Source: Comamonas sp. (GTDB lineage: Bacteria > Pseudomonadota > Gammaproteobacteria > Burkholderiales > Burkholderiaceae_C). Taken from it: DNA of 64,000 nt. The position numbers and the translations under genes were made by a program. Below, piece by piece: positions 4,788-53,074 of this stretch (its first letter is position 1; every line of letters starts with the position of its first letter). The notes beneath the pieces were generated by a model. The model had not been told where the DNA came from. It searched no databases and saw nothing but the letters and a program-made list of their open reading frames with translations. The DNA is taken from assembly GCA_021166775.1 (NCBI GenBank), contig JAJPEQ010000004.1, positions 1-64,000 on the forward strand, read 5' to 3'.

Positions 4788-4863
4788 TTCGCGGCTGAAG
4801 CCGCTCCCAAAAAACAGTCAGCAGGCATCTAGCTTGTTCTGTGGGAGCGGCTTCAGCCGCGAA
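4788..4863. repeat. Inverted pair of REP units upstream of the RAYT gene
   Basis: An inverted unit (4788-4809) and a direct unit (4840-4863) of the GGGAGCGGCTTCAGCCGC family face each other across about 30 bases. They form a classical BIME-like pair between wzt and the RAYT gene, whose ATG lies 20 bases beyond the second unit. The pair may also work as the transcription end of wzt. Confidence 0.9.
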
Positions 4864-4882
4864 TGTTGAACATGATGCACCG

Positions 4883-5344
4883 ATGAATGTCCTCGCCACC
4901 AGCCACCGTTTGCGCACCGGCCGCCATTCAGACATTGGCCGTGCTTACCTGCTGACCACGGTGGCACGTGAGAGGCAGACGGTGTTTGCACATTTTCCCC
5001 ATGCCCGGATGGCGATCAGCGCTTTACATGACTGCGACGCGGCGGGCTTGTCGTTCACGCTGGCTTTTGTCTTGATGCCTGATCATTTGCGCTGGCTGGT
5101 TCAGTTGCAATGCGGCACTTTGTCGGGGTTGATGCAGCGCTTCAAGTCGCGCAGCGCTGCCGCCATCAATCACTGTCGCGGCATGGCGGGCAAATCTTTG
5201 TGGCAGCCAGGGTTTCATGATCACGCGCTACGCGATGGGCAGAATATCCGCGCCGTGGCTCGCTACGTGATCGCGAACCCGCTGCGCGCCGGGCTGGCAG
5301 AGCGGGTGGGAGACTATCCCCATTGGGATGCCGTTTGGATGTGA
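4883..5344 (+). CDS. REP-associated tyrosine transposase (RAYT, Y1 family)
   Basis: This 153-residue protein is of the single-domain Y1/RAYT class. It has the family blocks FVLMPDHLRWLVQL (metal-binding HUH region, residues 62-75), WQPGFHDHALR (107-117) and RYVIANPLRAGL (127-138), with Y128 as the expected nucleophile. RAYTs cut and move REP hairpins, and this gene is bracketed on both sides by inverted REP pairs with identical cores, so it is probably the enzyme that spread them. The second histidine of the HUH motif is replaced by arginine (H68-L69-R70), which may impair metal binding. An in-frame start at 4841 would lie inside the REP unit and is not preferred. Confidence 0.88.
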   Translation: MNVLATSHRLRTGRHSDIGRAYLLTTVARERQTVFAHFPHARMAISALHDCDAAGLSFTLAFVLMPDHLRWLVQLQCGTLSGLMQRFKSRSAAAINHCRGMAGKSLWQPGFHDHALRDGQNIRAVARYVIANPLRAGLAERVGDYPHWDAVWM

Positions 5345-26144: not shown

Positions 26145-27046
26145 ACTATCGATCCATCTTTGCGGCCGGGCTGTTTGCCGGCCGCACCGCCATCGTGACC
26201 GGCGGCGGCTCGGGCATAGGGCGCTGCACGGCGCATGAACTGGCGGCGCTGGGCGCGCACGTGGTGCTCGTCGGGCGCAAGCAGGACAAGCTCGAAGCCG
26301 TGCGGCGCGAGATCGAAGCCGACGGCGGACAGGCGAGCTGGCAGGTCTGCGACATCCGCGACGAGGCGCGCGTGCGCGAGGTGGTGGCGGCCGTGGTGGC
26401 CGGGCGCGGGCGCGTCGACCACCTGGTGAACAACGCGGGCGGGCAGTACATGACGCCGCTGGAGGCCATCAGCGCCAAGGGCTGGGAGGCGGTGGTGGCG
26501 AGCAACCTCACGGGCGGCTTTCTCATGGCGCGCGAGTGCTATCTGCAAAGCATGCAGGCGCACGGCGGCGCGGTGGTGAACATCGTCGCCGACATGTGGG
26601 GCTCGATGCCGGGCATGGGCCACAGCGGCGCGGCGCGCGCGGGCATGGTGAGTTTCACCGAGACCGCCGCGCTCGAGTGGGCCAGGAGCGGCGTGCGCGT
26701 GAACGCGGTGGCGCCCGGCTACATCGCCTCCAGCGGCATGGACCACTACCCGCGCGAGGTGGGCGAGCTGCTGCGCACCATGCGCCAGACCGTGCCCGAG
26801 GGGCGCTTCGGCACCGAGGCCGAGGTGTCCGCGGCGATCGCCTTCCTGCTCAGCCCCGCGGCCAGCTTCATCAGCGGCAGCGTGCTGCGCGTCGATGGCG
26901 CGCGCCCGCAGGCGCGCATGGGCTGGGCCTTGCAGTTGCCGAGCGAGGAGGTGCGCCAGCGCGATGCGGTGCGCCCGTTCGACGGCTTTCACCGCGCGGT
27001 CACGCCCCGGCTGTTCGCGGATCAAGAGACGGGAAAACCGGCATGA
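26141..27046 (+). CDS. Short-chain dehydrogenase, trans-2-enoyl-CoA reductase-like (AtuB/AtuG-like)
   Basis: This 301-residue SDR has the cofactor loop VTGGGSGIGRCTAHELAALG and the structural NNAGGQY. Where most SDRs carry the Tyr-x3-Lys pair it reads GMGHSGAARAGMVSF, as in peroxisomal trans-2-enoyl-CoA reductase and the AtuB/AtuG-like proteins. It is thus probably an NADPH-linked reductase acting on enoyl-CoA, or a citronellal/citronellol-type dehydrogenase. It is coupled by four-base overlaps to the genes on both sides, placing it inside the atu-like operon. Confidence 0.85.
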   Translation: MNYRSIFAAGLFAGRTAIVTGGGSGIGRCTAHELAALGAHVVLVGRKQDKLEAVRREIEADGGQASWQVCDIRDEARVREVVAAVVAGRGRVDHLVNNAGGQYMTPLEAISAKGWEAVVASNLTGGFLMARECYLQSMQAHGGAVVNIVADMWGSMPGMGHSGAARAGMVSFTETAALEWARSGVRVNAVAPGYIASSGMDHYPREVGELLRTMRQTVPEGRFGTEAEVSAAIAFLLSPAASFISGSVLRVDGARPQARMGWALQLPSEEVRQRDAVRPFDGFHRAVTPRLFADQETGKPA

Positions 27047-28689
27047 ACCTGCCTTTCGCATCGCGCTGGAACGCCGCCGGCGCCCAGGCGCAGGAGCGGC
27101 GCGCGCACATGCTCGCGCGCATCGGTGCGCTGCGCGCGCTCGAGCAGCGCGCGGCCGACGCCTCGGCCCAGGCGGCGCCGCGCTTTGCCAGGCGCCACCA
27201 GCTGCTGCCGCGCGAGCGCGTGGCGCTGCTCATCGACCCCGGGGCGCCGTGGCTGCCGCTGGCGTCGCTCGCGGGCTACCTGCGCGATACCGACGATGCG
27301 AGCCGCTCGATTCCCGGCGGCAGCGTGGTTGCGGGCATCGGTTTTGTCTCGGGCACGCGCTGCATGGTGGTGGCGAGCGATTCGGGGATCGACGCGGGCG
27401 CGCTCGTGCCCATGGGCCTGTACAAGGTGCTGCGCGTGCAGGAGATCGCGTTGGCCGAGCGCCTGCCCTTCATCCACCTGGTCGAGAGCGCGGGCGCGAA
27501 CCTGGCGAACTACGCGGTCAACACCTTCATCGATGGCGGCAGCCTGTTTCGCAACCTCGCGAGGCTCTCAAGCGCGGGCATTCCGGTGATCACCGTGCAG
27601 CACGGCTCGGGCACCGCGGGCGGGGCCTACATGCCGGGGCTGTCGGACATCGTGATCATGGTCGAGGGCCGCTCGCGCGCCTTTCTCGCCGGCCCGCCCC
27701 TGCTCAAGGCGGCGACCGGCGAGGTGGCGAGCGAGGAGGAGCTGGGCGGCGCGCTGATGCACACCAGCGTCTCGGGTCTGGGCGAATACCTGGCGCAGGG
27801 CGACCGCGAGGCGCTGGGCATCGCGCGGCGGGTGGTGGCGCAGCTTCAATGGTCAAATCGGCCTCAAACGCTTGATGGACAAGCGCAAGCAGCTATCAAG
27901 ACAGCGTATGCCGAGCCGCCTTGGCCGGCCGAGGAGCTGCTCACGCTGATGCCCGCGCACCACCGCGAGCCGGTGGACATGCGCGAGGTGGCGGCGCGCC
28001 TCGTCGACGGCGGCGCGCTGCTCGAATTCAAGAGCGGCTACGGCATGGCGACGGTCTGCGCGCAGGCGGCGATCCACGGCCATGCGGTCGGCCTCATCAC
28101 CAACAACGGGCCGATCGACATCGCGGGCGCGAACAAGGCCACGCATTTCATCCAGTGGATGTGCCAGCTCGGCCACCCCATCGTCTACTTGCAGAACACC
28201 ACCGGCTACATGGTGGGCAAGGACGTGGAGCAGGGCGGCATCATCAAGCACGGCAGCAAGATGATCCAGGCGGTGACCAGCGCCACCGTGCCGCAGCTCA
28301 CCATCCAGTGCGGCGCGAGCTTCGGCGCGGGCAACTACGGCATGTGCGGGCGGGGCTTCGCGCCGCGCTTTCTCTTCACCTGGCCCAGCGCCGTGACCGC
28401 CGTGATGGGCGGCGAGCAGGCGGCGGGCACCATGCGCATCGTGGCCGAGGAGGGCTTGCGGCGCAAAGGCATGGAGCCCGATGCCGCGCGCCTGCAAAAG
28501 CAGTACGACGCCATCGTCGCGATGTTCGAGCGCCAGCAGGATGCCTTCTACACCAGCGGCGGGCTGCTCGACGACGGCGTGATCGACCCGCGCGACACGC
28601 GCGCCGTGCTGGGGTTCTGCCTGGACACCATCGCCGAGGGCGCGGCACGCGCGCTGCGGCCCATGCAGTTCGGCGTGGCGCGGATGTGA
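27043..28689 (+). CDS. atuC: Acyl-CoA carboxylase carboxyltransferase (beta) subunit, geranyl-CoA carboxylase-like
   Basis: This 548-residue carboxyltransferase has two crotonase-fold lobes. The N-lobe shows GSGTAGGAYMPGLSD, FLAGPPLLKAATGEVASEEELGGA and SGLGEYL, which look more like AtuC than methylcrotonyl-CoA carboxylase. The C-lobe shows GANKATHFIQWM, NTTGYMVGKDVEQGGIIKHG and SFGAGNYGMCGRGF. It transfers CO2 from biotin to the gamma carbon of a branched enoyl-CoA. The lobes are joined by a linker (about residues 269-287) encoded by a dispersed repeat read in frame. The alpha subunit is two genes downstream. Another branched or long-chain substrate is possible. Confidence 0.85.
   Translation: MNLPFASRWNAAGAQAQERRAHMLARIGALRALEQRAADASAQAAPRFARRHQLLPRERVALLIDPGAPWLPLASLAGYLRDTDDASRSIPGGSVVAGIGFVSGTRCMVVASDSGIDAGALVPMGLYKVLRVQEIALAERLPFIHLVESAGANLANYAVNTFIDGGSLFRNLARLSSAGIPVITVQHGSGTAGGAYMPGLSDIVIMVEGRSRAFLAGPPLLKAATGEVASEEELGGALMHTSVSGLGEYLAQGDREALGIARRVVAQLQWSNRPQTLDGQAQAAIKTAYAEPPWPAEELLTLMPAHHREPVDMREVAARLVDGGALLEFKSGYGMATVCAQAAIHGHAVGLITNNGPIDIAGANKATHFIQWMCQLGHPIVYLQNTTGYMVGKDVEQGGIIKHGSKMIQAVTSATVPQLTIQCGASFGAGNYGMCGRGFAPRFLFTWPSAVTAVMGGEQAAGTMRIVAEEGLRRKGMEPDAARLQKQYDAIVAMFERQQDAFYTSGGLLDDGVIDPRDTRAVLGFCLDTIAEGAARALRPMQFGVARM
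27850..27902 (+). repeat. Dispersed AGCAGCTATCAA repeat, copy A, read in frame inside atuC
   Basis: This stretch of about 53 bases shares its 3' half (ACAAGCGC then AGCAGCTATCAA) with copies at 35326, 46335 and 53006. It lies in the coding frame between the two lobes of the carboxyltransferase and is read as SNRPQTLDGQAQAAIKT. No stop is created. The repeat is seen directly; insertion history is inferred. Confidence 0.85.
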
Positions 28690-28708
28690 ATCTTTCAGGA
28701 GACCTGTG

Positions 28709-29887
28709 ATGCAACTGACCCCCGAACACGAACAGATCCGCGACACGCTCAAGCGCTACATCGCCGAGCACATCAACCCGCACGTCGACGAGTGGGAGGC
28801 GGCGCAGATGTTCCCCGCGCACGAGGTCTTCAAGGGCCTGGGCGATCTGGGCCTGCTGGGCCTGACCAAGCCGGTCGAGTACGGCGGCATGGGGCTCGAT
28901 TACTCCTACAGCATGCTGATGGCCGAGACCATGGGCCTCGTGAACTGCGGCGCCATCCCCATGGCCGTGGGCGTGCAGACCGACATGTGCACCCCGGCGC
29001 TGGCGCGCTTTGGCAGCGATGAACTGCGGCGCGAGTTCCTGGCCCCGGCGATCGCGGGCGACCAGGTGGGCTGCATCGGCGTTTCCGAGCCCGGCGCGGG
29101 CAGCGACGTCGCGGGCATCACCAGCCGCGCGCGCCGCGACGGCGACGATTACGTGATCAGCGGGCAGAAGATGTGGATCACCAACAGCCTGCAGGCCGAC
29201 TGGATGTGCATGCTGGTGAACACCGGCGAGGGCCCCATGCACAAGAACAAGAGCCTGATCATCGTGCCCATGCGCGATGGCCCGAGCGGCAAGCTGACCA
29301 AGGGCATCGAGGTCGCGCAGAAGATCAGGAAGATCGGCATGCACGCCAGCGACACCGGCCTGATCTACTTCGACGAGGTGCGCGTGCCACGGCGCAACCT
29401 GATCGGCCAGGAGGGCCAGGGCTTCATCTACCAGATGCAGCAGTTCCAGGAAGAGCGCCTGTGGGCCGCGGCCAATGCCATCACCGGGCTGGACGTGGCG
29501 ATCCGCGAGACCATCGAATACGCGCGCCAGCGCCGGATGTTCGGCGCCACGCTGCTGGAGCAGCAGTGGGTGCAGTTCAAGCTGGTGGAGCTGCAGACCG
29601 AGGTGGAGGCGCTGCGCGCGCTCACCTGGTCGGCGGGCGAGCGCTACGTGGCGGGCGAGGACGTGCTGCAGTGGGCCAGCATGGCCAAGCTCAAGGCCGG
29701 GCGGCTCACGCGTGAGGTGGCGGACACCTGTTTGCAGTTCTGGGGCGGCATGGGCTTCACCTGGGACAACCGCGTCTCGCGTCTGTACCGCGACGGGCGC
29801 CTGGGCTCGATCGGCGGCGGCGCCGACGAGGTGATGATGGGCATCATCGCCAAGACCATGGGGATGGCGAAGCGGGCGGGGGCATGA
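28709..29887 (+). CDS. Acyl-CoA dehydrogenase (AtuD-like)
   Basis: This 392-residue dehydrogenase has the family blocks CIGVSEPGAGSDVAGI (near residue 125), ISGQKMWITNSLQADW and WAAANAITGLDVAIRETIEYARQRRMFG. The C-terminal segment SIGGGADEVMMGI lacks the medium-chain type Glu, so the base probably sits earlier, as in isovaleryl-CoA and long-chain enzymes. In atu pathways AtuD oxidises citronellyl-CoA to geranyl-CoA. A second paralogue is at 31950. The ATG at 28709, eight bases after CAGGAG, is preferred to an adjacent GTG. Confidence 0.9.
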   Translation: MQLTPEHEQIRDTLKRYIAEHINPHVDEWEAAQMFPAHEVFKGLGDLGLLGLTKPVEYGGMGLDYSYSMLMAETMGLVNCGAIPMAVGVQTDMCTPALARFGSDELRREFLAPAIAGDQVGCIGVSEPGAGSDVAGITSRARRDGDDYVISGQKMWITNSLQADWMCMLVNTGEGPMHKNKSLIIVPMRDGPSGKLTKGIEVAQKIRKIGMHASDTGLIYFDEVRVPRRNLIGQEGQGFIYQMQQFQEERLWAAANAITGLDVAIRETIEYARQRRMFGATLLEQQWVQFKLVELQTEVEALRALTWSAGERYVAGEDVLQWASMAKLKAGRLTREVADTCLQFWGGMGFTWDNRVSRLYRDGRLGSIGGGADEVMMGIIAKTMGMAKRAGA

Positions 29888-31953
29888 AGAAGATCCTCAT
29901 TGCGAATCGAGGAGAGATCGCGCGCCGGGTGATCGCCACGGCGCAGTGCATGGGCATCGCCACCGTGGCCGTGTATTCCGACGCGGACGCTCAGGCCCCG
30001 CATGTGCGCGAGGCCACGCAGGCGGTGGCGCTGGGCGGCCACACCTCGGCCGAGAGCTATCTGCGCATCGACAAGCTGCTCGCGGCAGCGCGGGCCACGG
30101 GCGCCGATGCGGTGCACCCGGGCTACGGCTTTCTGAGCGAGGACGCAGGTTTTGCGCAGGCCGTGCGGGATGCGGGCCTGACCTGGATCGGCCCGCCGCC
30201 CGAGGCGATCCGCGCGCTCGGCGACAAGGGCGCGGCCAAGCGTCTGGCGGTGCAGCAGGGCGTGCCGGTGCTGCCGGGCTACGCGGGCGAGGATCAATCG
30301 GTCGAACGCTTTGCGCGCGAGGCGCAGGCCATCGGCTACCCGGTGATGGTCAAGGCCGTGGCCGGCGGCGGCGGGCGCGGCATGCGCCTGGTGCGAGGGG
30401 CCGCCGAACTGCCCGCGGCCCTGCAAGCTGCAAGCTCGGAGGCGCTGGCGGGCTTCGGCAACGGCCGCCTCCTGATCGAGCGCGCGGTGATGCGCCCGCG
30501 CCACGTGGAGCTGCAGGTCTTCGCCGACGCGCACGGTCACGTCATCCATCTGGGCGAGCGCGACTGCTCGGTGCAGCGGCGCCACCAGAAGATCATCGAG
30601 GAGTCGCCTTCGCCCGCCGTCTCGCCCGGGCTGCGCGAGCGCATGGGCGAGTGCGCCGCGCGGCTGGCGCGGGGCGCGGGTTATGTGGGCGCGGGCACGG
30701 TGGAGTTTTTGCTCGAAGGCGAGGACTTCTACCTGATGGAGATGAACACGCGGCTGCAGGTCGAGCACCCGGTGACCGAGGCGGTGACGGGGCTGGATCT
30801 GGTGCAGTGGCAGATCCGCGTGGCGCGCGGCGAGGTGCTGCCTTTGATGCAGGAGCAGGTGCACCTGAGCGGCCACGCGATCGAGGTGCGGCTGTGCGCC
30901 GAGGACGAGCGCTACGCACCGCACGCCGGGCGCATCGCGCACTTCGCCGAGCCTGCGGGGGCCGCCCACTTCACGCGTGCGCCGCTGCGCTTCGACCATG
31001 CGATCGCCGCGGGTGGCGAGGTCACGCCGTTCTACGACGCGATGCTCGGCAAGCTCATCGTGCATGCGCCCACGCGCGCCGAGGCCATCGCGCAGCTGGC
31101 CGACGCGCTGGCGCGCACCGAGGTGCTGGGGCTGCCGACCAACCGGGCCTTCCTGATCGAGTGCCTCGGCGATGCGCGCTTTGCCCGTGGCGAGGCGCTG
31201 ATTTCCTTCCTCGATGAGCACGGCGATGCCCTGCGCACATCGCTCCTCGAAAAAGAGCGTGCCGCGCATGACCAGTGGGCGCTTGCGGCCATTTTGCCTC
31301 TGAACCGTGGTCTGGCCTGCGGCTTTGCCGCGCCGCGCCGGCTCGTTTATCGGGGAACGTCCGTGACGCTGCCGGTGCGTGCCGTGGCCGGTGGCTGGCA
31401 GGTGCAGGAAGTCGGTAGTCCGTCGCCCGACCCCTCTGGTGGGAGCGGCTTCAGCCGCGAAGAAGCGCTTTCGCGGCTGAAGCCGCTCCCACAAAGGAAG
31501 GGAGATGTCCAGCCGCCGCGCGCCATCGCCGTGCAGCCGCTCGCGGATGGGAGCCTGCGTTGCATCGAGGGCGGTATTTCCGAGCGCGTGCGCGCCGTGG
31601 CCGTGCCCGGCGGCGAGGGCGGCCAGCGCTGGCACGCGCAGGCGGGCGGTGTGGATTGGTGGTTTGAAGATGCCACCTATCTGCCGCAAGCGGGCGCGGG
31701 TGGCGCGCTGGCAGCCACGGAATTGAAGGCACCCTTCAATGGCCGCGTGGTGCGCGTGGCCGCGCGGCCAGGGCAGCCGCTGGCGGCGGGCGAGGCGGCG
31801 GTGGTGATCGAATCGATGAAGCTGGAGCACGGCCTGTCGCCGCGCGCGGACGTGACAGTGGCCGAGGTGCTGGTCGAAGTGGGCCAGCAGGTCAGCCCTG
31901 GCCAGGCGTTGCTGCGCTTTGCGCCCCCGGCGGCGAAGGAGCAGGCCGCATGA
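29884..31953 (+). CDS. atuF: Biotin carboxylase / biotin carboxyl carrier (alpha) subunit, geranyl-CoA carboxylase-like
   Basis: This 689-residue alpha subunit starts with biotin carboxylase: MKKILIANRGEIARRVI, the ATP-grasp glycine-rich KAVAGGGGRGMRLV near residue 160 and EMNTRLQVEHPVTEAVTG near 290. A middle domain (about 460-600) follows, then a biotinyl domain with IESMKLEHG near 645, where Ser replaces the usual Ala of the AMKM motif. It carboxylates biotin with ATP and bicarbonate and works with the beta subunit at 27043. About 18 residues in the middle domain (GSGFSRE...SRLKPLP) are encoded by an inserted REP pair, so this part is repeat-derived. Confidence 0.9.
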   Translation: MKKILIANRGEIARRVIATAQCMGIATVAVYSDADAQAPHVREATQAVALGGHTSAESYLRIDKLLAAARATGADAVHPGYGFLSEDAGFAQAVRDAGLTWIGPPPEAIRALGDKGAAKRLAVQQGVPVLPGYAGEDQSVERFAREAQAIGYPVMVKAVAGGGGRGMRLVRGAAELPAALQAASSEALAGFGNGRLLIERAVMRPRHVELQVFADAHGHVIHLGERDCSVQRRHQKIIEESPSPAVSPGLRERMGECAARLARGAGYVGAGTVEFLLEGEDFYLMEMNTRLQVEHPVTEAVTGLDLVQWQIRVARGEVLPLMQEQVHLSGHAIEVRLCAEDERYAPHAGRIAHFAEPAGAAHFTRAPLRFDHAIAAGGEVTPFYDAMLGKLIVHAPTRAEAIAQLADALARTEVLGLPTNRAFLIECLGDARFARGEALISFLDEHGDALRTSLLEKERAAHDQWALAAILPLNRGLACGFAAPRRLVYRGTSVTLPVRAVAGGWQVQEVGSPSPDPSGGSGFSREEALSRLKPLPQRKGDVQPPRAIAVQPLADGSLRCIEGGISERVRAVAVPGGEGGQRWHAQAGGVDWWFEDATYLPQAGAGGALAATELKAPFNGRVVRVAARPGQPLAAGEAAVVIESMKLEHGLSPRADVTVAEVLVEVGQQVSPGQALLRFAPPAAKEQAA
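31439..31493. repeat. REP pair read in frame inside atuF
   Basis: A direct unit (31439-31461) and an inverted unit (31470-31493) lie in the reading frame of the alpha subunit and are translated as GSGFSRE and SRLKPLP. The stop-bearing frame of the inverted unit is avoided. This is the only REP pair in the window away from the first 16 kb. Confidence 0.95.
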
Positions 31954-33110
31954 ACTGGAGTGCCGAAGAACTCGCGCAGGCGCGCGCCCAGCTCGTCGAT
32001 GCGGTGACGCGCTTTGCACGCAGCGAGATCGCGCCGCACGCCACCGCATGGGATGCGGCGGGCGAGTTCCCGCGGCTGCTGTACCGCCGCGCGGCCGAGC
32101 TCGGCCTGCTGGGCCTGGGCTACCCCGAGGCGCTGGGCGGCACGCCCGCGCCCCATGCACTGCGCATGCCTGCCTGGCGCGCGCTGTGCCGCCATGGCGC
32201 CTCGGGCGGCGTGCAGGCGAGCCTGTTCTCGCACAACATCGCGCTGCCGCTGGTGGTGGCGTTGGCGAGCGACGAAGTCAAGCGCGAGGTGGTGCCGCCG
32301 GTGCTCGCGGGCGAGCAGATCGCGGCGCTCGCCATCACCGAGCCCGGCGGCGGCTCGGACGTGGCCCAGCTCACCACCACGGCGCGCCGCGACGGCGACG
32401 ACTATGTGATCGACGGCGAAAAGATCTTCATCACCAGCGGCATGCGCGCCGATTGGATCACGCTGGCGGTGCGCACCGACGCCACGCGCAAGGGCGCGGG
32501 CGGCATCAGCCTGATCGTGGTGCCGGGCGATAGCAGCGGAATTTCGCGCACACGGCTCGACAAGATGGGCTGGCTCAGTTCCGACACCGCGCACCTGCGT
32601 TTCGACGGCGTGCGCGTGAGCGCGCGCTACCTGCTGGGCGGCGAGGGCGAGGGCTTCAAGGCCATCATGAGCAATTTCAACGGCGAGCGCCTGGGCCTGG
32701 CGGCCGGGGCCGTGGGTTTTGCCGAGGCCTGCTACGACGAGGCGCTGGCCTGGGCGCGCCAGCGCACGGCGTTCGGCCAGCCGCTCGTCCAGCACCAGGT
32801 GATCCGCCACAAGCTCGTGGACATGCGCCAGCGCATCTGCGCCAGTGCCGCCTGGCTCGAAGCCGTGGCCGCGCGCGCCGACGCGGGCGACACGGGCGCG
32901 GACTGGGTGGCCGAGGTCTGCACGCTCAAGAACCAGGCGACGCAGACGATGCAGTTCTGCGCCGACGCGGGCGTGCAGATCCTGGGCGGCATGGGCTACA
33001 TGCGTGGCACGGTGTGCGAGCGCATCTACCGCGAGGTCAAGGTCGTCACCATCGGCGGCGGCACCGAGGAAATCATGAAGGAACTGGCGGCGCGCCAGTG
33101 GGGTTTTTGA
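31950..33110 (+). CDS. Acyl-CoA dehydrogenase (second AtuD-like paralogue)
   Basis: This 386-residue acyl-CoA dehydrogenase has LAITEPGGGSDVAQLTTTARR near residue 130, IDGEKIFITSGMRADWITLA, an FNGERLGLAAGAVGFAEACYDEAL helix and ILGGMGYMRGTVCERIYREVK. As in its neighbour at 28709, the C-terminal GGGTEEIMKEL lacks the medium-chain type catalytic Glu. Two dehydrogenases in one operon would fit two rounds of oxidation on branched acyl-CoAs of different length. It overlaps atuF by four bases and is followed 12 bases later by a crotonase gene. Confidence 0.9.
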   Translation: MNWSAEELAQARAQLVDAVTRFARSEIAPHATAWDAAGEFPRLLYRRAAELGLLGLGYPEALGGTPAPHALRMPAWRALCRHGASGGVQASLFSHNIALPLVVALASDEVKREVVPPVLAGEQIAALAITEPGGGSDVAQLTTTARRDGDDYVIDGEKIFITSGMRADWITLAVRTDATRKGAGGISLIVVPGDSSGISRTRLDKMGWLSSDTAHLRFDGVRVSARYLLGGEGEGFKAIMSNFNGERLGLAAGAVGFAEACYDEALAWARQRTAFGQPLVQHQVIRHKLVDMRQRICASAAWLEAVAARADAGDTGADWVAEVCTLKNQATQTMQFCADAGVQILGGMGYMRGTVCERIYREVKVVTIGGGTEEIMKELAARQWGF

Positions 33111-33122
33111 CCGGAGGGGGCT

Positions 33123-33896
33123 GTGGCAGACACGGAAGAACTGAGCATCTCGCGCGAGGGCGGCGTGCTGCGCCTGACCATCGCGCGGGAAGCGCGGCGC
33201 AACGCCATGAGCGCCGCCGTCATCGCGGGCTTGACCCGCGAGCTGACGCAGGCGAATGCGGACCGCGGCCTGCGCGCCATCGTGCTCAGCGGCGCGGGCG
33301 ACAAGGCTTTCTGCGCCGGGGCCGACCTGGCCACGGGCAAGTCGTTTCAGTTCGACTACGCCGAGCCGCAACAGGGCTTTGCCAACCTGCTGCGCGCGGC
33401 GCATGCCGTGCACGTGCCCTTGATCGCGCGCGTCAACGGCGCCTGCATGGCGGGCGGCATGGGGCTGCTGGCGATGTGCGACCTGGCGGTGGCCGCGCCC
33501 CATGCGCGCTTTGGCCTGCCCGAAGTCAAGGTGGGGGTGTTCCCCGCGCAGGTGCTCACGGTGCTGCAGGGCCTGATCGGCCGGCGTGCGCTGGCCGAGC
33601 TGTGCATCACGGGCGAGCCGATAGCTGCGCGGCAGGCGCTGGCGATCGGCCTCGTCAACGAGGTCAGCGAGGACCTCGACGGCGCCATCGACAGGCTGCT
33701 CGCGCGCATCGTGGACAAATCGCCCAGCGCGATCCGCCGCGGCCTGTACCTGATGAAGCACCTGGAGGGCCTGCCGTTCGAGCAGTCCATGGCCTTCACC
33801 GAAAGCCAGATCGGACTGATCGCACAGACCGAGGACGCGACCGAGGGGCAGGCGGCGTTCCGTGAAAAACGCGCGCCGAATTGGAGCGGACGATGA
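33123..33896 (+). CDS. Enoyl-CoA hydratase family protein (AtuE-like)
   Basis: This 257-residue crotonase starts at GTG after CGGAGGGGG. FCAGADLATGKSF and VNGACMAGGMGLLAMCDLA form the oxyanion hole. Both catalytic Glu positions are present (FGLPEVKVG and ALAELCITG), so it should be an active hydratase. In atu clusters AtuE hydrates isohexenylglutaconyl-CoA, the carboxylated intermediate. Its position between the carboxylase and AtuA genes supports that role, though a hydratase of related glutaconyl-type CoAs is equally possible. It overlaps the next gene by four bases. Confidence 0.88.
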   Translation: MADTEELSISREGGVLRLTIAREARRNAMSAAVIAGLTRELTQANADRGLRAIVLSGAGDKAFCAGADLATGKSFQFDYAEPQQGFANLLRAAHAVHVPLIARVNGACMAGGMGLLAMCDLAVAAPHARFGLPEVKVGVFPAQVLTVLQGLIGRRALAELCITGEPIAARQALAIGLVNEVSEDLDGAIDRLLARIVDKSPSAIRRGLYLMKHLEGLPFEQSMAFTESQIGLIAQTEDATEGQAAFREKRAPNWSGR

Positions 33897-35752
33897 ACAG
33901 CGACAAGATCATTCGCATCGGCGGCGCCTCGGGCTTCTGGGGCGATTCGAGCGTGGGCGCGCCGCAGCTCGTGGCCAGCGGCCAGGTGGACTACCTGGCG
34001 TTCGACTACCTGGCCGAGCTGACCATGTCCATCCTCGCGGCCGCGCGCATGAAAAAGCCCGAGCTGGGTTACGCGACGGACTTCGTCACCGTGGCGATGC
34101 GCAGCGTGCTCAAGGACGTCGTGGCGAAAGGCATACGCGTGGTGAGCAACGCCGGCGGCGTGAACCCCGAGGGCTGCGCCCAGGCGCTGCGCGCGCTGGC
34201 CGAGGAGCTGGGCGTGCAGGTCAAGATCGCCGTGGTGACGGGCGACGACGTGATGCCGCTGCTGCCTGCACTACGCGAGCAACAGCCCCCGGTGGCTGAG
34301 CTGCAGAGCGGCGCGCCGTTGCCCGCGCGGGTGGTGACGGCCAATGCCTACCTGGGTGCGCGGCCGATCCAGGCGGCGCTCGATGCGGGCGCGCAGATCG
34401 TCATCACCGGGCGCTGCGTCGATTCGGCGGTGACGCTGGGCATCCTCATGCATGAATTCGGCTGGCAGGCGGATGAGTTCGACCGCCTCGCGGGCGGGAG
34501 CCTCGCGGGCCACATCATCGAATGCGGTTGCCAGGGCACGGGCGGGCTGCACACCGACTGGCAGGCCGTGCCCGACTGGGCGCACATCGGCTACCCCATC
34601 GTCGAGTGTGAGCGTGATGGCAGCTTCACCGTCACCAAGCCCGCGGGCACGGGCGGGCTGGTGGCGCCGCAGGTTGTGGCCGAGCAGATGCTGTACGAAA
34701 TCCACGACCCCGCGGCCTACCTGCTGCCCGACGTGGTCTGCGACTTCACGCAGGTGACGATGGTGCAGACCGGGCCCGATCGCGTGCGCGTGACCGGCGC
34801 GCGCGGCCTGGCGCCGACGGGCAGCTACAAGGTCAGCGCCACGTATCTGGACGGCTACAAGACCTCGGCGCAGCTCACCATCGTGGGCCTGCAGGCCGTG
34901 GCCAAGGCGAGGCGCACCGGCGAGGCGATTTTCGAGCGCGTGGGCGAGCTGCTCGCCGCGCAGGGCCTGGCGCCGCTGTCGCGCACGCACCTGGAGGTGC
35001 TGGGCGCCGAAAGCGGCTGGGGTCCGCTCGCCGCGCCCGGGGCGCTCGCCACGCGCGAGGCGGTGCTGCGCCTCACGGCCTGCCATGCGGACAAGCGCGC
35101 GCTGGAGCTGCTGGCGCGCGAGATCGCACCCGCGGGCACCTCGTTTGCGCCCGGCACGACCGGGGCGGGCGGGCGCGCCAGCGTCTCGCCGCTGATCCGG
35201 CAGTACGCGTTCTTGCTGGACAAGGCGCAGCTTGCAGCGCGCGTGGTGCTCGATGGGGTGGAGGTGGCGCTGTCCACGCTCGATTCACCCGCTCTTGCGC
35301 TGGGACAGGGCAGGGGTGACGGTTCTGAATCAAATCAGGCTGAAGCGCAGGCAGGACAAGCGCGAGCAGCTATCAATACGGAATCAGCGGCAACCGTGGA
35401 ACTTCCGCTGATCCGCCTCGCCTGGGCGCGCTCGGGCGACAAGGGCGACACCTCCAACATCGGCGTGATCGCACGCCGACCCGAGTGGCTGCCCCTCCTG
35501 CGCGCGCAGCTCACGCCCGAGCGCGTGAAGGCGTATCTGGCGCACGCCATCCAGGGGCGCGTCACGCGCCACGAGGTGCCGGGCATCGCCGCCTTCAACT
35601 TCGTCTGCGAGCAGGCGCTGGGCGGCGGCGGCATGGCCTCGCTGAACAACGACGCGCTCGGCAAGGGTATGGCGCAGATGCTGCTCACGCTGCCCGTGCG
35701 CGTGCCCGCGGACCTGGCTTGGAATCTGACAACCCAAGGAGACCGATCATGA
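33893..35752 (+). CDS. atuA: AtuA-like acyclic terpene utilisation protein (DUF1446)
   Basis: This 619-residue protein starts with the DUF1446 domain (about residues 5-455). Family blocks are KIIRIGGASGFWGDS, AGGVNPEGCAQAL, VITGRCVDSAVTLG, IECGCQGTGGLHTDW and KPAGTGGLVAPQVV. A smaller C-terminal domain (about 505-605) begins IRLAWARSGDKGDTSNIGV. AtuA is needed for citronellol/geraniol growth in Pseudomonas and is thought to act on the 3-hydroxy-3-isohexenylglutaryl-CoA stage, but its exact reaction is not settled. The two domains are joined by a segment (about 478-496) encoded by a dispersed repeat. It is coupled to the ligase gene by a four-base overlap. Confidence 0.9.
   Translation: MNSDKIIRIGGASGFWGDSSVGAPQLVASGQVDYLAFDYLAELTMSILAAARMKKPELGYATDFVTVAMRSVLKDVVAKGIRVVSNAGGVNPEGCAQALRALAEELGVQVKIAVVTGDDVMPLLPALREQQPPVAELQSGAPLPARVVTANAYLGARPIQAALDAGAQIVITGRCVDSAVTLGILMHEFGWQADEFDRLAGGSLAGHIIECGCQGTGGLHTDWQAVPDWAHIGYPIVECERDGSFTVTKPAGTGGLVAPQVVAEQMLYEIHDPAAYLLPDVVCDFTQVTMVQTGPDRVRVTGARGLAPTGSYKVSATYLDGYKTSAQLTIVGLQAVAKARRTGEAIFERVGELLAAQGLAPLSRTHLEVLGAESGWGPLAAPGALATREAVLRLTACHADKRALELLAREIAPAGTSFAPGTTGAGGRASVSPLIRQYAFLLDKAQLAARVVLDGVEVALSTLDSPALALGQGRGDGSESNQAEAQAGQARAAINTESAATVELPLIRLAWARSGDKGDTSNIGVIARRPEWLPLLRAQLTPERVKAYLAHAIQGRVTRHEVPGIAAFNFVCEQALGGGGMASLNNDALGKGMAQMLLTLPVRVPADLAWNLTTQGDRS
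35326..35379 (+). repeat. Dispersed AGCAGCTATCAA repeat, copy B, read in frame inside atuA
   Basis: This copy lies between the DUF1446 and C-terminal domains of AtuA and is read as SNQAEAQAGQARAAINT. It is in the same orientation and the same reading frame as copy A in atuC (SN...GQAxAAI), with 16 codons between the shared ends in both. Confidence 0.85.
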
Positions 35753-46305: not shown

Positions 46306-46334
46306 GCCTTGCGGCCATGGCCACAAGATCGTTC

Positions 46335-46392
46335 TTTGATTTGATAGCTGCTGGCGCTTGACCAGCAATGGTTGCAGCCGTATTTGGTTTGA
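46335..46392 (-). repeat. Dispersed AGCAGCTATCAA repeat, copy C (intergenic)
   Basis: This intergenic copy, inverted relative to copies A and B, lies between the convergent MFS and NAD(P)-binding genes. It reads TTTGATAGCTGCTGGCGCTTG at its conserved end (given here in part: TTGATAGCTGCT). It shows that the stretches inside atuC and atuA belong to a dispersed family. Confidence 0.85.
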
Positions 46393-46400
46393 ATTTGCGG

Positions 46401-52993: not shown

Positions 52994-53005
52994 GGAGTAT
53001 CTCCG

Positions 53006-53063
53006 GTTTGAATAAAAAAAGGCCGCCGGCGCTTATGCGACAAGCGCGGACAGCTATCAATAG
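53006..53063 (+). repeat. Dispersed AGCAGCTATCAA repeat, copy D (intergenic)
   Basis: This intergenic copy is in the same orientation as A and B, with ACAAGCGC and a one-base variant end, GACAGCTATCAATA. It lies between the acyl-CoA dehydrogenase and thiolase genes of region 5, in their transcript. Confidence 0.85.
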
Positions 53064-53074
53064 AGAAGTTCAAC

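Follow-up and report, generated by a model that had tools for sequence, protein, structure and literature searches.

A short repeat is scattered over a 64,000-nucleotide stretch of the genome of a Comamonas sp. (contig JAJPEQ010000004.1, positions 1 to 64,000; the whole stretch is hereafter the window), and two of its copies are read in frame inside the genes atuC and atuA. Our tentative reading, held with a confidence close to even, is that the repeat is a chromosomal site of about 60 bp restricted to Comamonadaceae (consensus TTTTTGAGTCAAATNGGCTCNAGCGCTTGNCNGNCAAGCGCNAGCAGCTATCAAAA), which is similar to repetitive extragenic palindromic (REP) sequences, is recognised as DNA or RNA, and is kept by selection. 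Comparison of the copies located in genes showed the same position and the same frame in several genera, together with rare codons specific to the element and, in the one divergent genus examined (genome G055), the sequence dialect of that genus.

With the 20-mer core pattern CAAGCGCNNGCAGCTATCAA and up to 3 mismatches, 4 matches were found in the window, compared with a mean of 0.11 and a maximum of 2 in 100 shuffles. The same pattern and tolerance gave 111 places in the whole genome (2.9 Mb, 13 contigs) versus 2 for the reversed control, and on these counts the repeat is dispersed and real, as the original prediction had stated. A model of 72 positions, R1, was built from 56 copies including copies A and B. 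The four copies and the two host genes are as follows.

Copy A, 27840..27911, plus strand: inside AtuC in frame (+,0), peptide SNRPQTLDGQAQAAIK; R1 match E 3.8e-17 (copy in the training set), 0 mismatches to the 20-mer core.
Copy B, 35317..35388, plus strand: inside AtuA in frame (+,0), peptide SNQAEAQAGQARAAIN; R1 match E 2.3e-16 (copy in the training set), 0 mismatches to the 20-mer core.
Copy C, 46329..46400, minus strand: intergenic; R1 match E 7.0e-18.
Copy D, 53001..53072, plus strand: fills the gap between two minus-strand genes, 12 and 10 bp from its neighbours; R1 match E 9.3e-15.
atuC, 27043..28689 (predicted start), plus strand: geranyl-CoA carboxylase beta-type carboxyl transferase (PF01039, 1.4e-107; best match in the PDB 5ikl, geranyl-CoA carboxylase beta).
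atuA, 33893..35752 (predicted start), plus strand: AtuA domain (PF07287, 5.3e-145) and AtuA_ferredoxin domain (PF23544, 1.7e-29).

Copies A and B have equal orientation and frame, encode the related peptides given above, and both keep 16 codons from TCA AAT to ATC AAR, in agreement with the first description; calling of the neighbouring genes confirmed that copies C and D are intergenic. Both coding copies had also been placed between structural domains. This is so for copy B, which lies in AtuA between PF07287 (end at residue 456) and PF23544 (start at residue 509). Copy A is located within the single Pfam carboxyl-transferase match of AtuC (222-702 of the open reading frame (ORF) as given), at what we take to be the junction of the carboxyl-transferase N and C subdomains, and the AtuC stretch at this place is 7 aa longer than 5ikl.

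In the whole genome, R1 gave at least 150 matches (weakest E 0.009), a lower bound in that 150 were scored out of 2780 first-look candidates. Relative to the core, the element spans positions of about -35 to +29 (57 copies), or about 60-65 bp, and the mean GC content of the matches was 47% versus 68% in the window. A copy was assigned to a gene when the same frame was called on both sides and remained open through the repeat, with gene calls made by a home-made codon model that was trained on 38 ORFs of the window and agreed with its own longer-context call in 460/500 windows. Twenty-eight of the 150 matches were in genes by this test, and 25 of these were covered by family scans. The bearing genes encode AtuC, AtuA, ProA, PurL, a SpoU methylase, HemD, WaaA, TruB, RlmD, a flavin oxidase, a PxpB/C-like protein, ParC, PurK, Tex, DnaE2 (two places), SelO, a CobD-like aminotransferase, AroE, SrkA, MiaA, LpxB, a methyltransferase, and an RNB-domain protein; one further bearing ORF beside dnaE2 had no family found in the scan. 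In LpxB (k=122), SelO (k=68), and the first place in DnaE2 (k=67), native sequence may have matched by chance.

Orthologues of the in-gene copies were sought in G003, of the same genus as this genome (G000), and in G010, G012, G023, G055, and G057, of other genera. From the 28 in-gene copies, both Atu copies and five others that were weak or odd were set aside. This left 21 pieces as input, of which 15 were complete in the query, plus one residue of a 16th. RlmD, TruB, HemD, PurK, PurL, and WaaA carried the element at an identical place in this genome, G003, G010, G012, G023, and G055, the WaaA alignment with small gaps. A site thus recurred in up to five of the six genomes searched, four of these belonging to other genera. 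The Tex site was common to this genome, G003, G012, and G023, the ProA and ParC sites to this genome, G003, and G023, and the flavin oxidase site to five genomes. The in-gene copies of G010 were the most degenerate (17 to 45 on the position weight matrix (PWM) of this genome described below), and G057 lacked the element in every gene for which a row was found, with no HemD row recovered. Judged by this distribution, many of the in-gene sites are old.

In several genes, the bearing linkers and loops were longer than those of non-bearing orthologues. The gain was 12 to 14 aa in ProA (14 versus 4ghk), 4 aa in TruB (also versus 1k8w), 7 aa in PurL, 7 aa in RlmD (8 versus 1uwv), 6 to 10 aa in Tex, 8 to 17 aa in ParC, and 7 to about 10 aa in AtuC. 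PurK gained none, and its alignments with three PurK structures (10bm, 4izo, and 4e4t) run ungapped through the repeat. Over the eight measurable genes the net gain was 0 to 17 residues and never the 20-21 residues of the whole element. Of the original proposal of a mobile element inserting in frame, the dispersal and the in-frame copies stand, whereas the sites shared between genera, the missing whole-length gain, and the unchanged length of PurK speak against it.

We then dissected whether the DNA itself, apart from the peptide, was kept. The Ala codon of the GCTATCAA box was GCT in 40/40 bearing sequences of eight genes in frame (+,0) (ProA, HemD, WaaA, TruB, RlmD, ParC, PurK, and Tex). The anchor had been picked from the copy of this genome, so the independent count is 32/32 outside this genome and 24/24 outside the genus. 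Flanking invariant Ala codons in the same alignments were GCT in 7/252, and GCT makes up 3.8% of the Ala codons in the training ORFs of the window. For the codon count, G057 was excluded throughout; three more genomes (G010, G012, and G055) were removed by hand for ProA and ParC, and two (G010 and G055) for Tex, since they lack the element there. Convergence of peptides in the absence of a DNA repeat was rejected because the same DNA also occurs outside coding sequence and is read in several different frames, and because the anchor codon, although rare, does not vary.

G055 contained 91 GCTATCAAA words versus 5 for the reversed control. The consensus of 30 of these places differs from that of this genome upstream of the box, GCTATCAAA being the search key in G055. 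PWMs were made from non-coding copies only, 69 from this genome and the best 20 of 24 from G055 (6 of the 30 had been set aside as coding), and none of the seven G055 in-gene copies tested was among the 30 training places. In all seven genes (PurL, HemD, WaaA, TruB, RlmD, flavin oxidase, and PurK) the copies of this genome fitted their own PWM better and the G055 copies fitted the G055 PWM better. At six diagnostic positions in the seven genes, the copies of this genome were of their own type at 33, of G055 type at 6, and of neither at 3, and the G055 copies were of G055 type at 33, of the other type at 6, and of neither at 3. The bearing copies of G003, G012, G023, and G010 also fitted the PWM of this genome better, some by just 2 to 6 bits. 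Since the PWM difference alone is biased towards G055 in sequences that lack the element, we relied on absolute PWM scores and diagnostic counts. Ten of the 15 complete genes were scored for dialect; a ragged alignment, fused linkers, or a possible chance match excluded the SpoU methylase, an unnamed ORF, PxpB/C, the first DnaE2 place, and SelO. Of the ten, three (ProA, ParC, and Tex) do not carry the element in G055, so that seven remained. Together, the GCT anchor and the G055 dialect point to a constraint at the DNA level, or to homogenisation, within coding sequence.

AtuC and AtuA, for which alignment of orthologues had been proposed as the check on an insertion, gave different answers. 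Among 29 loci of AtuC homologues outside the genus, the place of copy A scored 42 in G010 and 58 in G023 on the PWM of this genome, compared with a highest score of -8 when 4000 random positions of the window were scored on both strands. AtuC of G055 held an element of G055 dialect (score 49) in a linker no longer than that of non-bearers, AtuC of G043 and G039 gave weaker element scores, and 23 other loci were negative on both PWMs. The AtuC linker with copy A is about 10 aa longer than most family rows. Because it is present at the same place in G010 and G023 and in dialect form in G055, copy A is an old site and not an insertion private to this genome. An element-like stretch (PWM of this genome, 31) was also seen in the homologous linker of a probable methylcrotonyl-CoA carboxylase beta paralogue of AtuC in G012 (L127), and the AtuC linker of G027 (L104) has 53 residues in the compared stretch versus about 30 and contains the repeat-like word GGACTCTGACCCCAATT.

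Copy B was confined to the AtuA of this genome among the 11 compared; it was not found in the 10 other orthologues, all of other genera, among 60 genomes of the family, and it is probably recent. In five of those 10, other repeat-like words stood in the same linker. AtuA of G017 (L095) contained TTGGGGTCTGACCCCAA twice in frame, a word with 26 palindromic places in the G017 genome, and AtuA of G050 (L089) and G039 (L093) contained CTTCGACAGGCTCAG in frame, which has 30 places in G050 and 4 in G039. AtuA of G043 and G020 had degenerate relatives of the G017 word, recognised by eye only; the strict word had 3 places in G043, none of them in AtuA, and none in G020. Several families of repeats that are unrelated to one another can land in an interdomain linker such as that of AtuA.

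A count of the coding copies by frame had been proposed, and it showed one frame to be clearly preferred, although not exclusive. The 28 in-gene copies among the 150 matches were in frames (+,0) 17, (-,2) 6, (+,1) 2, (-,1) 2, and (+,2) 1, and the 20 among the best 100 matches were (+,0) 13, (-,2) 3, (+,1) 1, (-,1) 2, and (+,2) 1. In the remaining 80 of the best 100, which served as reference (four of them were placed inside genes by the later gene caller), the open frames were (+,0) 50, (-,2) 35, (+,1) 40, (-,1) 7, (+,2) 30, and (-,0) 30. The frame of AtuC and AtuA was therefore observed in 13/20 versus 26% expected (P 2.9e-4). Of 90 copies from GTDB contigs, 11 were in genes and 7 of these in (+,0) versus 19% expected (P 1.6e-3); 4 of 27 genus copies were in genes, 2 in (+,0), which was not significant. 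The three sets hold partly orthologous genes and are not fully independent. The in-gene copies of this genome use five frames, one of which is represented by no more than two weak matches, and those of the GTDB set use four.

The repeat is restricted in lineage. All nine searched genomes of the genus carry it (8 to 71 places each, at most 1 mismatch). The single-contig genome G003 has 51 strict copies, which by eye seem denser at 0-1.0 Mb than at 1.0-2.7 Mb. An exact 23-base pattern hit 88 stretches of GTDB contigs, and the 80 of these that were listed were labelled as Acidovorax, Comamonas, Ottowia, Giesbergeria, Diaphorobacter, Simplicispira, Extensimonas, or Polaromonas, or as bins named at family level or above, with one Ottowia bin supplying 15. 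Ottowia and Extensimonas were checked to be Comamonadaceae; the other six genera we take to belong there as well. R1 was also run at E 1e-5 with stricter filters, under which this genome gave 81; it had no match in 59 further genomes of the order, which represent 49 other families plus a single member of the same family. At E 0.01, a search of 72,556 plasmid records gave one R1 match and a search of 50,697 phage records gave none, the Comamonadaceae share of both being uncounted, and 31 stretches with the repeat were found in 2.9 million viral contigs.

By the gene caller, the best 130 matches were in genes (32), between co-directional genes (70), in convergent gaps (17), and in divergent gaps (8), with 3 undetermined. 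For the 95 non-genic matches with two neighbours, the median distances were 5 and 8 bp and the median gap was 85 bp. This filling of short intergenic gaps resembles that of REP sequences. Three matches lie within 4 kb in or beside the error-prone polymerase gene dnaE2 (G000:C6:706294, 708008, and 710047; L311, L312, and L313), of which the middle one may be due to chance.

In the mechanism we propose, a putative trans-acting factor that differs between genera would recognise the site as DNA (or RNA), and selection would hold sites wherever they are located, in genes or in gaps. In housekeeping enzymes, tolerant linkers and loops would accommodate the sites, for the most part in a single frame. 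The preferred frame may be that whose peptide, xESNxAxxxxxQAxAAIK, is best tolerated by proteins (in our judgement it resembles a soft helix), and it is the frame most often free of stops. Copies would have entered genes by local replacement and not as clean cassettes. A stronger form, which we regard as possible but advance with less assurance than the site itself, is that a Comamonadaceae factor of genus-specific specificity imposes its binding site on genes, such that parts of TruB, HemD, PurK, RlmD, Tex, and AtuC would be dictated by a DNA signal and the proteins would change with the dialect.

Several observations weigh against a selected site. The recognising factor is postulated, and no search aimed at one was made. 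Gene conversion or repeated replacement predicts the same concerted pattern, and the ProA and AtuA copies resemble the lineage-specific gains that a mobile element would give. There is only one divergent dialect (G055), its PWM derives from 20 copies, and the copies of this genome are mixed at the diagnostic positions in flavin oxidase (3 to 3) and WaaA (4 to 2). Moreover, 7 of the 20 in-gene copies use frames other than (+,0), matches weaker than about the 100th may be due to chance, gene calls depend on the home-made codon model with its 460/500 agreement, and the same-family genome G116 had no match in the stricter R1 scan.

Among the rivals, the one that survives best is homogenisation, in which a REP-type family devoid of site function has its in-gene copies rewritten to the family consensus by gene conversion or template switching (molecular drive). 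The concerted dialect shared by coding and non-coding copies in G055 would follow from it, as would the motif written over native PurK codons with the length unchanged. Copies of about 60 bp that are only partly alike are nevertheless short for RecA recombination, and conservation is not uniform: it is strongest in the CAAGCGC and GCTATCAA parts, although these are also parts of the search key, as is GCTATCAAA in G055. We consider homogenisation somewhat unlikely.

Less probable still is a selfish mobile element of the type of the Rickettsia palindromic elements (RPEs), inserted in frame and passively inherited thereafter. It would account for at least 150 dispersed matches with in-frame peptides, for the ProA gain, which only three of the seven genomes compared show (this genome, G003, and G023), for copy B only in the AtuA of this genome among 11, and for the consensus ends TTTTGA...TCAAAA, which by eye resemble short inverted ends. 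A one-off selfish insertion is disfavoured because the DNA, and not only the peptide, was kept across genera, as the invariant GCT indicates, and because of the concerted dialect. In addition, none of the eight measured genes gained the whole length (PurK gained nothing), plasmids gave one match and phages none (records whose Comamonadaceae share was uncounted), and a PF01797 search of the nine genus genomes found no transposase tracking the repeat. For ProA and AtuA a plain selfish insertion is the best explanation; it does not account for the remaining sites.

Movement of a REP element by a REP-associated tyrosine transposase (RAYT, a Y1 transposase) appears very improbable. The window does hold a Y1_Tnp (IS200/RAYT-like) ORF at 4841-5344 on the plus strand (167 aa, 26.2 bits), the only PF01797 match in the genome at E 0.001. 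REP sequences mobilised by RAYTs are hairpins with a GTAG-type foot, and the G055 consensus contains this RAYT-type word (in CTGTAGCCC); copies were also fewer in divergent than in convergent gaps (8 versus 17), at P 0.11. The consensus of this genome lacks GTAG, however, and PF01797 matched in only three of the nine genus genomes, two of them over the cut-off, and in neither G003 nor G006, two single-contig assemblies with 51 and 60 strict copies. By this PF01797 distribution, a RAYT as the mover is unsupported.

That the repeat works in the sense strand as a structured RNA or a terminator-like element is scarcely credible: the in-gene copies among the best 66 matches were 17/17 sense (a cut chosen after seeing the data), but those among matches 67 to 130 were 6 sense and 9 antisense, copies between co-directional genes were 44 antisense versus 26 sense (P 0.04), and a fold of 56 copies with RNAalifold contained 3 pairs, with no two-sided change in any of them. 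By the frame test, 15 of the 20 in-gene copies of the best 100 were sense, which was not significant (P 0.18). A named 7-bp stem was paired in 78.8% of cells (24/500 shuffles as high), with a covariation score reached by 17/500 shuffles and 2 pairs changed on both sides, a number reached by 226/500, and the G055 consensus pairs, by eye, in a different register. By these results, a conserved hairpin is unsupported in the set of copies from this genome.

Under the reading of a selected site, linker residues of Comamonadaceae enzymes may reflect constraints on DNA rather than on protein, and the system allows a direct test of whether a DNA-level signal steers the protein sequence of housekeeping genes.

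Several known systems share features with this repeat. REP sequences and BIMEs are short, occur in many copies, fill intergenic gaps, have genus-specific variants, and are extragenic by definition; the repeat shares the first four traits, but its coding sites are conserved in several genera. DNA uptake sequences are words of 9-12 bp, present about a thousand or more times per genome, with dialects. Like them, the repeat would be a selected DNA word in coding sequence that has dialects and can be built in place, not needing insertion; unlike them, it is a long composite element with low hundreds of copies per genome. The word AGCAGCTATCAA (at most 1 mismatch) occurred 42 times in 2.9 Mb versus 2 for the control, which is not the density of a short strict word. 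In openly licensed PMC full text, no bacterial-repeat paper was recognised by title among the matches listed for the words AGCAGCTATCAA and TTGATAGCTG, and no description of this repeat or of concerted coding copies was found there, apart from the beta-proteobacterial repeat element (BRE) of Bordetella, which was compared by description.

The BRE (Hot et al. 2011, PMC3110155) is described as about 90 bp long (partial copies 40-60), of 69% GC in Bordetella, in part tandem, and present 1 to 29 times per genome. Like the repeat, it is a dispersed betaproteobacterial sequence that also occurs in Comamonadaceae, with some copies wholly in coding sequence; by its description, and not by its sequence letters, it differs from a repeat of about 60 bp with a mean GC of 47% and at least 150 matches. 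In-frame coding repeats as such are already a known kind, as RPE, ERIC, and NEMIS illustrate. Enterobacterial ERIC/RU-1 and the 107 bp NEMIS/Correia elements of Neisseria are described as short and mostly intergenic, with terminal inverted repeats and some copies fused in frame (PMC2229807). In this description they are like the repeat in being short, mostly intergenic, and in some copies in frame, and the passages of PMC2229807 on ERIC and NEMIS make no mention of the concerted change of coding copies seen here.

RPEs have a single coding frame, which is not matched by the 13/20 and 7/11 in (+,0) and the four or five frames seen here. RPEs (Ogata 2000, 2002; PMC10969869, PMC2229807) are described as stem-loop elements of 105-150 bp that end in inverted repeats and occur both intergenically and, in frame, within unrelated conserved proteins. 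The repeat is likewise dispersed, intergenic as well as in frame in unrelated conserved proteins (20 of the best 100 matches), and its coding copies share a peptide. Unlike RPEs as so described, it is about 60 bp long, has no supported stem, and gives net gains of 0 to 17 aa versus an element of 20-21 codons; different genera also carry it at identical codons, its synonymous positions are conserved, and its coding copies change together with the non-coding ones. The Rickettsia elements are read as selfish insertions; here, many coding copies are old, occur in more than one genus, are constrained in their nucleotides, and in one genus have changed together with the non-coding copies.

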